From Moorella humiferrea (GTDB taxonomy: Bacteria; Bacillota; DSM-521; Neomoorellales; Neomoorellaceae), in NCBI RefSeq assembly GCF_039233145.1, contig NZ_CP136419.1, positions 2,516,001 to 2,580,000 of the forward strand: a stretch of DNA of 64,000 bases, in the 5' to 3' direction. The translations under genes and the position numbers were made by a program. This document shows positions 15,598 through 43,519 of this stretch, in pieces (positions within the stretch are counted from its first letter, which is position 1; each line of letters opens with the position of its first letter). A model generated the notes under the pieces. The model was not told the origin of the DNA, searched no databases, and worked only from the letters and a program-made list of their open reading frames with translations.

Positions 15598-15716
15598 TGT
15601 TGATTGTCAATAGAATTGACCCACTATGTGCAAATAAAATTGACCCACTTGGGAACAAAAATAATAAGCTTCAAGTCATGCGCCAAAGGGAATGAAGGTA
15701 TAGTCTCGCTGCCGAA

Positions 15717-17968: not shown

Positions 17969-18065
17969 CTCTTGTTCCTCCCCCTCTCAGGGGGGATTTT
18001 ATCACAAGATTAGGTGGGTCAGTTTTATTTGACGATCTAGGGTCAATTCTATTTTACGATCTACA

Positions 18066-41189: not shown

Positions 41190-42713
41190 TTACGCCTTGG
41201 CGGCAGCGGTGAAGCTGCCCTTGAATTCTTCGATGCTCTTCTTTAACTTTTCCTCCAGCTCGCCGTCAAGCTGGCGCTTTTCCCGGATGCCCTGCAAAAC
41301 CTCGGGATGGACGCTGTGGAGGAAGCGCAGGAATTCCCTTTCAAAGGGCCGCACCCTTTCTAAGGGCAGGTCGTCCAGGAAACCGTTGACGGCGGCATAG
41401 AGAACCGCCACCTGCTCCTCCACCGGCATGGGCTGGTACTGGTCCTGTTTTAAAATCTCCATCATACGTTCGCCGCGGGCCAGCCGTGCCTGGGTGGTTT
41501 TATCCAGGTCGGAGCCGAACTGGGCAAAGGCCGCCAGCTCCCGGTACTGGGCCAGGTCAAGGCGCAGGCGGCCGGCCACCTGTTTCATGGCCTTGATCTG
41601 GGCCGCGCCCCCTACCCGGGACACCGACAGGCCCACGTTGACGGCCGGACGCTGGCCGGCGTAGAAAAGGTCGGACTCCAGGTAGATCTGGCCATCGGTG
41701 ATGGAGATGACGTTAGTGGGAATGTAGGCCGAAACATCCCCCGCCTGGGTCTCGATAATGGGGAGGGCCGTCAGGGAGCCTCCCCCCATGGCGTCGCTCA
41801 AACGTGCCGCCCGTTCCAGCAGGCGGGAGTGCAGATAGAAGACGTCGCCCGGATAGGCTTCCCGTCCCGGCGGGCGTCTGAGGAGCAGGGACAGCTCGCG
41901 GTAGGCGGCGGCGTGCTTGGAAAGGTCGTCGTAGACGCAAAGGACGTCCCGGTGCTGCTCATACATGAAATACTCGCCCATGGCGCAGCCGGCATAGGGA
42001 GCAATGTAGAGCATGGGGGCCGGTTCGCTGGCCGTGGCCGAAACGACGATGGTGTATTCCATGGCCCCGGCTTCCTCCAGGCGCTGCACGACGCCAGCTA
42101 CGGTGGAGGCCTTCTGGCCGATGGCCACGTAAATGCAAATGACGTTCTGGCCTTTTTGGTTGATGATGGTGTCCACGGCGATGGCCGTCTTGCCCGTTTG
42201 GCGATCGCCGATGATTAGTTCCCGCTGGCCGCGGCCGATGGGGATCATGGAATCGACGGCTTTAAGGCCCGTCTGCAGGGGAGTATTCACCGGCTGGCGG
42301 TAGACGACGCCGGGGGCCGGCGATTCCACCGGCCGGAATTTGTCTGCCTTGATGGGCCCTTTGCCGTCTATGGGCTGCCCCATGGCGTTGACTACCCGGC
42401 CGATCAGGGCTTCGCCCACCGGGACTTCGACTATGCGCCCCGTACGCTTGACCCGGTCCCCTTCTTTAATGTGGGTGTAGGGACCCAGGACGACGGCGCC
42501 GACGTTGTCTTCTTCCAGATTGAGGACCATGCCGTAGACGTTGCCGGGAAACTCCAGGAGCTCGCCGGCCATGGCCCGCTCAAGGCCATATATACGGGCG
42601 ATGCCGTCGCCGACCTGGGTGATGATGCCCGTGTCGGCCACTTCTACTTCCAGCTGGTACTGCTCGATCTGGTTCTTCAGAATGCTGGTTATTTCATCGG
42701 GCCGGATGCTCAA
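41190..42713 (-). CDS. atpA: ATP synthase F1 alpha subunit
   Basis: 507 residues. Non-catalytic nucleotide-binding subunit with Walker [16 protein letters not shown] and the characteristic [22 protein letters not shown] and [10 protein letters not shown] segments. The start codon is TTG at 42713, preceded by AAGGGGTG. Unlike the other genes of the operon it is separated from the previous gene by 269 bases that hold a structured element (42739-42941), which may alter its expression. Confidence 0.96.
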
Positions 42714-42738
42714 GACTGTTTTTCACCCCTTTGCGCGC

Positions 42739-42941
42739 CTGGGTTGTTTTCGTTCGCTCCGTGACCCTCGCGGAGCGGTCTACGGCTCAGCCTCCGGCTC
42801 GGGCGGGGTTCCCGGCCTATTCGGCATCCTTGCCTCAAAGGCCGGCCTCGGACCTCCTGTCCTCGGCCCCGCCCTCGTCCTTCGGCTTCGCCGCATCCCC
42901 TTGGCCGCTCGGGTCAAGTCGCTCACTCCAAACAACACCAG
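42739..42941 (-). ncRNA. 203-nt nested stem element between atpH and atpA (candidate structured RNA or palindromic insert)
   Basis: GC-rich element with nested pairings, given here in plus coordinates. The outer stem is CTGG+GTTGTTT (42739-42749) with AAACAAC+CCAG (42930-42941, one bulged A). Inside are TGACCC (42762-42767) with GGGTCA (42911-42916), GAGCGG (42773-42778) with CCGCTC (42905-42910), GGGCGGGG (42801-42808) with CCCCGCCC (42867-42874), and CCGGCCT (42812-42818) with AGGCCGG (42839-42845). Local hairpins: GGAC/GTCC (42850-42862), CGGC-ttc-GCCG (42883-42893), GGC/GCC (42784-42792) and GGC/GCC (42823-42834). All fit together without crossing. No open frame explains it. The natural transcript is the minus strand as part of the atp mRNA. 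I do not recognise a named RNA family; it could also be a repeated palindromic insert. Confidence 0.5.
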
Positions 42942-42982
42942 CCTTTAAACATTAAAACAGCGCTATTAAAGAAACTTCTTTC

Positions 42983-43519
42983 TTACGCGCCTTTCAAGTG
43001 TTCGCCCAAAAGTTCCAGCTTTTTCTTCAAGCTGGCGTCGAGGACGCGATCGCCTATGCGGATGACCATCCCGCCGAGGAGGGAAGGTTCTATCCTGGTA
43101 TGCAGGCGGACGTTCTGTCCCGTAACCAGGCTCAATTTTTCCTGCAGGGCGGCAATGAGCTCCGCCGAAGGCGGCGCCGCCACCTGAACTTCCACCGGCA
43201 GCACCTTGTTTTCCCGGTCCACCAGGCGGCGGAACTGGACGGCCATTTCCGGCAAATAACGTTCCCGGCCTTTGGCCAAGACCAGGTGCAAGAAGTTTTT
43301 AAGGATTGGATCGATGTCCGGGAAAAGGGAATCCATTATTTTCTGTTTTTCCCGGACGGGAATGAGCTGGTGATAGAGAACGCGGCGCAGTTCCTGGTTT
43401 TCCCCCAGGGCCCGACCGACTTCTTCCAGTACGACGGCGAAGGCTTCCGTAGCGCCTTTCTGGCGGGCTATCTCGAAAAGGGCGCGGGCGTAACGCCGGG
43501 CTATTGTCTGGCCGCTCAT
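42983..43519 (-). CDS. atpH: ATP synthase F1 delta subunit (OSCP)
   Basis: 178 residues. Peripheral-stalk cap that holds F1 to the b subunits. N-terminal ARRYARALFEIARQKGATEAF and C-terminal LVTGQNVRLHTRIEPSLLGGMVIRIGDRVLDASLKKKLELL are family signatures. The start overlaps the atpF stop by four bases. Confidence 0.96.
   Translation of the reverse strand: MSGQTIARRYARALFEIARQKGATEAFAVVLEEVGRALGENQELRRVLYHQLIPVREKQKIMDSLFPDIDPILKNFLHLVLAKGRERYLPEMAVQFRRLVDRENKVLPVEVQVAAPPSAELIAALQEKLSLVTGQNVRLHTRIEPSLLGGMVIRIGDRVLDASLKKKLELLGEHLKGA

Follow-up and report, generated by a model that had tools for sequence, protein, structure and literature searches.

A dispersed MITE-like element in the atp operon of Moorella humiferrea carries a conserved, TwoAYGGAY-like RNA with putative CsrA-binding hairpins

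Introduction

Bacterial MITEs and palindromic repeats (REP/BIME, ERIC, Correia/NEMIS, BOX, RUP) are short, non-coding, dispersed and intergenic, and they are often cotranscribed with the genes around them; some have terminal inverted repeats (TIRs) and target-site duplications. TwoAYGGAY RNAs (Rfam RF01731, clan CL00106; gathering score 43 bits) were discovered computationally (PMC2864571) and were later predicted to be clostridial CsrA-binding RNAs (PMC4333381); we found no experimental test of TwoAYGGAY as a CsrA RNA in the literature. The consensus for CsrA is RUACARGGAUGU by SELEX, with an ANGGAN hexaloop (PMC7652899). The known RNA antagonists of CsrA come from Gammaproteobacteria, and the established antagonist in Firmicutes is a protein, FliW (PMC4333381, PMC7652899).

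Here we describe an element found in the window, that is, in a stretch of 64,000 nucleotides of the Moorella humiferrea genome (contig NZ_CP136419.1, positions 2,516,001 to 2,580,000), where it lies between atpH and atpA. A literature search on the repeat in Moorella, or on CsrA in connection with MITEs, returned nothing relevant.

Results

The element between atpH and atpA

A first-pass annotation of the window had pointed out that 269 bases separate atpH from atpA. The coordinates of the open reading frames bear this out, and Pfam confirms both genes. The features of the locus are as follows.

41190-42713, minus strand: atpA, the downstream gene (Pfam ATP-synt_ab).
42983-43519, minus strand: atpH (delta/OSCP), the upstream gene (Pfam OSCP).
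42739-42941, minus strand: the whole repeat copy, a long basal stem with an inner three-way junction (fold z -8.9; other copies have the same boundaries).
42802-42873, minus strand: the inner 72-nt three-way junction, with a GGCGGGG/CCCCGCC stem, two hairpins and a CCGGCCU/AGGCCGG stem (match to the covariance model R1, covariation).
42850-42862, minus strand: hairpin 1, GGAC-AGGAG-GUCC, with the CsrA-type loop CAGGA-N-G (loop GGA in 72/78 distinct R1 copies; the stem covaries).
42823-42834, minus strand: hairpin 2, GGC-AAGGAU-GCC, with the loop CAAGGAUG (CsrA/RsmE consensus CANGGANG; loop GGA in 76/78 distinct R1 copies).
42739-42760, no strand assigned: left terminal inverted repeat of the core unit, pairing with 42919-42941 (compensatory changes among copies).
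42919-42941, no strand assigned: right terminal inverted repeat of the core unit, pairing with 42739-42760 (compensatory changes among copies).
42724-42730, minus strand: probable Shine-Dalgarno sequence of atpA, AGGGGTG, just 3' of the element in the mRNA (from the sequence; the same AAAGGGGTG is found in the short gap of element-free relatives).

The plus strand of 42739-42941 folded at -98.6 kcal/mol (z -5.9; none of 200 shuffles reached this energy), and the fold contained the stems named in the first-pass annotation, including the 11-bp outer stem with its bulge. The minus strand, which is that of the atp mRNA, gave the better fold (-118.4 kcal/mol, z -8.9), in which GA faces GA beside both hairpins. 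A count of G-U against A-C cells, made as a strand test on the fold specific to L001, was not decisive for the strand. No terminator-like site (a GC stem followed by a T run) was present in 42600-43100, and no promoter-like site was found in the atpH-atpA interval. The fold of 42739-42941 exceeds chance and is not a terminator, in agreement with the earlier remark that it goes far beyond what a terminator needs.

Copies in the genus and beyond

By BLAST, the genome of M. humiferrea (2.67 Mb) was found to hold nine full and three partial copies, and most genomes of the genus carry further ones. The 65 full copies that we collected and aligned come from six genomes of the genus and represent 41 loci. 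Their common ends, GGCTGGCATTTGTTTTCGCTCGCTCC ... GTCGCTCGCTCCAAACAAATGCCAGCC, form an imperfect inverted repeat, and the end points originally assigned to the window copy, 42739 and 42941, proved to be the boundaries of the repeat shared by many copies.

Copies in the M. humiferrea genome adjoin atpH-atpA, secA-prfB, lepA-hemW, leuA-leuC, two sporulation-type sigma factor genes, and a lon-like gene with valS (genes named by eye from the sequence, only the atp genes by Pfam). According to crude ORF calls, the genes flanking the 65 copies were codirectional in 63 cases, divergent in two and convergent in none, and the Shine-Dalgarno sequence of the next gene begins a few bases beyond the end of many copies. 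At the genus loci, the structured strand coincided with the mRNA strand 30 times and was opposite to it 6 times (binomial p 7e-5). A bias was also seen beyond the genus, with 32 versus 4 copies in G012, G016 and G018, unlike in G020, a genome of another family with about 40 copies (L352-L366), where the count was 7 versus 6.

At three orthologous loci (leuA-leuC, secA-prfB and lepA-hemW), the core was inverted between species while the flanks matched (L006 and L201 versus L145 and L176; L002, L177 and L195 versus L171 and L185; L003, L175 and L188 versus L146 and L194), as if it had been flipped between its terminal repeats. These inversions, and the absence of strand bias in G020, imply that orientation is not essential. 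Some copies were longer (265-356 nt), with extra arms between the core blocks (L162, L169, L171-L173, L178, L180, L201, L203), and in many copies whole arm sequences were swapped; the extra and exchanged arms suggest mosaic exchange among copies.

Insertion sites and mobility

Among the genus members that have this region, the element occurs between atpH and atpA only in G000 and G004; in G001, G002, G003, G005, G006, G008, G009 and G010, the two genes are separated by a short gap only, and the atpA ribosome-binding site is of the same kind. Empty orthologous sites were found in relatives for five other copies (L155, L187, L148, L164, L159). The position of the element within the atp operon had led the first-pass annotation to suggest a device that sets the Fo/F1 subunit ratios. 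Such an atp-specific regulatory or processing element is highly improbable, and indeed largely refuted already, because the site is empty in eight of the nine other genus members and the element is found in many unrelated operons.

In the genus of M. humiferrea, insertion has split or duplicated a GGAG-type sequence, and the identity of the 8-bp flanks (mean 4.86, versus 4.35 when shuffled) is inseparable from the shared Shine-Dalgarno consensus. The window copy has the core TIRs, with no recognisable outer flanks or duplication at atpH-atpA. In G012 and G018, which represent two related genera, the units are about 255 bp long and have 13-bp GRTGCWTCCGAAA inverted repeats at their ends. Across 23 such units, a mean of 6.48 of 8 flank bases were identical, versus 2.42 in shuffled controls (maximum 3.6); about half of the duplications were perfect, with a sharp peak at length 8. 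TIRs and target duplications of fixed length, which characterize MITEs, are thus both present in G012/G018. The dispersed copies, the empty sites and the target duplications in relatives support another early suggestion, that of a mobile palindromic insert, and leave us almost certain that this is a dispersed mobile element.

Short units of about 118 nt were also encountered, with the same basal stem and a GCTCGCTCC loop in place of the core (L112-L118, e.g., L113:2137-2252), one of which was absent from the orthologous place in another species (L115). Similarly, G012 contains TIR pairs about 97 nt apart, consisting of the ends without the core. Since both lineages have short units with the ends but no core, movement does not require the core. 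A search for an autonomous partner, in the form of inward-facing exact TIR pairs 1-3 kb apart in G012/G018, detected none.

The presence of GGAG on both sides of empty sites had prompted us to consider an IS200/IS605-type single-strand transposition with a GGAG target. We dropped this idea because no Y1 transposase was found in several carrier genomes (G000, G003, G004) and because of the 8-bp duplications in G012/G018. A HEARO/IscB guide RNA was also considered and set aside; there was no Rfam match. Elsewhere in the window, two 40-nt inverted repeats (15609-15648 and 18014-18053; 83% complementary, 2.4 kb apart) may mark the two ends of an insertion sequence.

Conservation of the RNA structure

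In 50 genus copies, 16 of the 39 core pairs were compensated, with 65 compensatory cells versus 14.5 after shuffling. Pairwise identity among genus copies was 0.89 in the core versus 0.78 in the arms. For searches across the phylum we used R1, a covariance model of the inner 72 nt made from 11 diverse sequences with seeds from BLAST; in these seeds, which span several families, 11 of 23 pairs were compensated. On the window, R1 gave a sole strong match, at 42802-42873 on the minus strand (100 bits, E 2.4e-20). Of 101 genomes searched in the phylum, 31 gave matches at E 1e-3 (E-values being rough) and the other 70 gave none; G012, G016 and G020 had at least 44-48 copies each.

The 78 distinct R1 copies paired in 96% of cells and showed compensation at 20 of the 23 pairs, with 280 two-sided cells versus 77.7 in shuffled alignments. 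Their covariation score was 0.441, versus 0.115 upon shuffling and at most 0.069 for slid structures. The BLAST and covariance-model searches that had been proposed as a check thus turned up many copies with compensatory changes, and we have hardly any doubt that the RNA structure is under selection. As for the proposal of a regulatory RNA, the strong covariation and the conserved GGA loops uphold the RNA part, while the regulatory role is plausible only.

In the distant genome G024 (L253, L274), the core occurs in pairs of copies about 300 nt apart, whose stems are different (GGGAAAC/GTTTCCC) and whose loops are the same. In G094, a BLAST fragment occurred about 1.1 kb from csrA; R1 did not bear out an element in that stretch.

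The covariation bears on whether we are dealing with a plain MITE or palindromic repeat, whose fold would serve transposition or derive from correction of the DNA palindrome, any effect at the RNA level being incidental. This would accommodate the TIRs with 8-bp duplications in G012/G018, the opposite orientation of the core at three orthologous loci, and the terminal stems of individual copies, L164 for instance, in which the two sides have changed together. We nevertheless consider it unlikely: the core, though dispensable for movement, is the best conserved part of the element, its loops are near-invariant while the stems covary across families, and the structured strand is biased toward the mRNA sense.

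Hairpin loops and co-occurrence with csrA

Both loops keep the pattern C-A-(N)-GGA-N-G in the 78 distinct R1 copies, and the rest of each stem varies with compensation. The loop GGA was found in 72 copies for hairpin 1 and in 76 for hairpin 2, percentages that lean toward GGA because R1 models the loop bases, albeit copies missing one loop were still recovered; the closing C-G pair was present in 73 and 75 of the 78, respectively. Within the genus, CAAGGANG occurs in hairpin 2 of all 50 copies, and hairpin 1 has been swapped for another sequence in 16 of them. In the window copy, hairpin 1 has the shorter, 5-nt form of the loop, CAGGANG. The element accordingly displays paired GGA loops of the ANGGAN type, closed by C-G on short stems, as CsrA-type sites do; judged by its sequence, C-A-(N)-GGA-N-G is the CsrA/RsmE consensus.

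In the M. humiferrea genome, csrA lies at 756918-757070 and adjoins fliW. A csrA gene was detected in 29 of the 31 element-bearing genomes versus 42 of the 70 element-free ones (Fisher p 0.0007); counted by genus, the figures were about 21/23 versus 39/64 (p 0.008). Contrasts within a genus are offered by G014 versus G017 and by G041 versus G084. Two genus members, G008 (58% complete) and G010, are without the element and yet have csrA. In G022, which carries the element, the csrA match was only partial, and in the fragmented assembly of G021, with about 10 copies of the element, csrA was not found.

We consider it likely that, as its loops predict, the element binds CsrA. The GGA loops could instead serve a different role, such as recognition by another protein or an anti-Shine-Dalgarno contact with the ribosome, given that GGA also resembles a Shine-Dalgarno sequence and that G021 has copies with no csrA detected. 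This seems quite improbable to us, since the loop, the closing C-G pair and the variable N positions all fit the CsrA/RsmE consensus (PMC7652899), csrA co-occurs with the element, and CsrA binding has been predicted independently for the related TwoAYGGAY (PMC4333381).

Relationship to TwoAYGGAY

The first-pass annotation had recognised no published family. This holds for the window copy: Rfam yielded no family for it at the gathering threshold, TwoAYGGAY was absent from 42650-43000 even at E<=10, and the genus copies tested stayed below the score of that family. It does not hold for distant copies, as four distant R1 matches scored 42.0-52.9 bits with TwoAYGGAY, three of them at or above 43 (52.9, 46.7 and 43.1); the relatives L277, L289 and L284 reach the gathering score. 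The window copy has the architecture of TwoAYGGAY, namely two hairpins, a junction, a long basal stem and tandem GA by the hairpin stems. Its loops read AGGAG and AAGGAU rather than AYGGAY; loops of the AYGGAY type are seen in distant R1 copies. Sharing the architecture and missing both the score and the loop rule, the window element is in our view a divergent relative of TwoAYGGAY and not a member; that the two are related is very probable.

Discussion

In the explanation that we favour, and regard as fairly likely, the insert is a MITE-like, non-autonomous mobile element whose conserved TwoAYGGAY-like RNA binds a CsrA dimer in operon mRNAs. The evidence for mobility and for the RNA structure is good; the binding of CsrA we infer. 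The element would be transcribed within the operon, and its two hairpins would then bind one CsrA dimer. On the atp mRNA, CsrA would then sit in the atpH-atpA interval, a short way upstream of the ribosome-binding site of atpA, and from there it could either repress the expression of the atpA side or protect it. Jointly, the copies would titrate CsrA. That the element regulates atp expression through CsrA is a tentative and rather doubtful proposal.

On a broader scale, a transposon family may be spreading paired CsrA-binding RNA devices near the Shine-Dalgarno sequences of operons, so that mobile DNA builds and rewires a CsrA regulon and provides Firmicutes with a distributed CsrA sponge replacing CsrB-type sRNAs. 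We see this as possible, if somewhat short of probable. The many-copy, mobile form within operons (atp, secA-prfB, leu) makes the CsrA-RNA proposal directly testable. If binding were shown, this would be a mobile element spreading CsrA sites into bacterial operons and, if the broader view is true, an example of how a transposon can distribute a site of post-transcriptional control across a genome.

With TwoAYGGAY, the element shares a long basal stem, a junction, two hairpins (A-Y-GGA-Y in TwoAYGGAY) and tandem G-A pairs, and both occur in Clostridia. It differs in being GC-rich and in its loops, CAGGANG and CAAGGANG instead of AYGGAY. It is also many-copy, mobile and located inside operons, whereas we found no such description of TwoAYGGAY in the literature. 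The CsrB/CsrC and RsmX/Y/Z sRNAs likewise use GGA hairpins to capture CsrA dimers, but these were identified in Gammaproteobacteria (PMC4333381) and are free sRNAs, each bearing from several to many sites; the element presents two sites on a three-way junction, within many mRNAs, in Firmicutes. Compared with REP/BIME, ERIC, Correia/NEMIS, BOX and RUP, finally, it has a covarying RNA core, conserved protein-type loops and a phylum-wide distribution.
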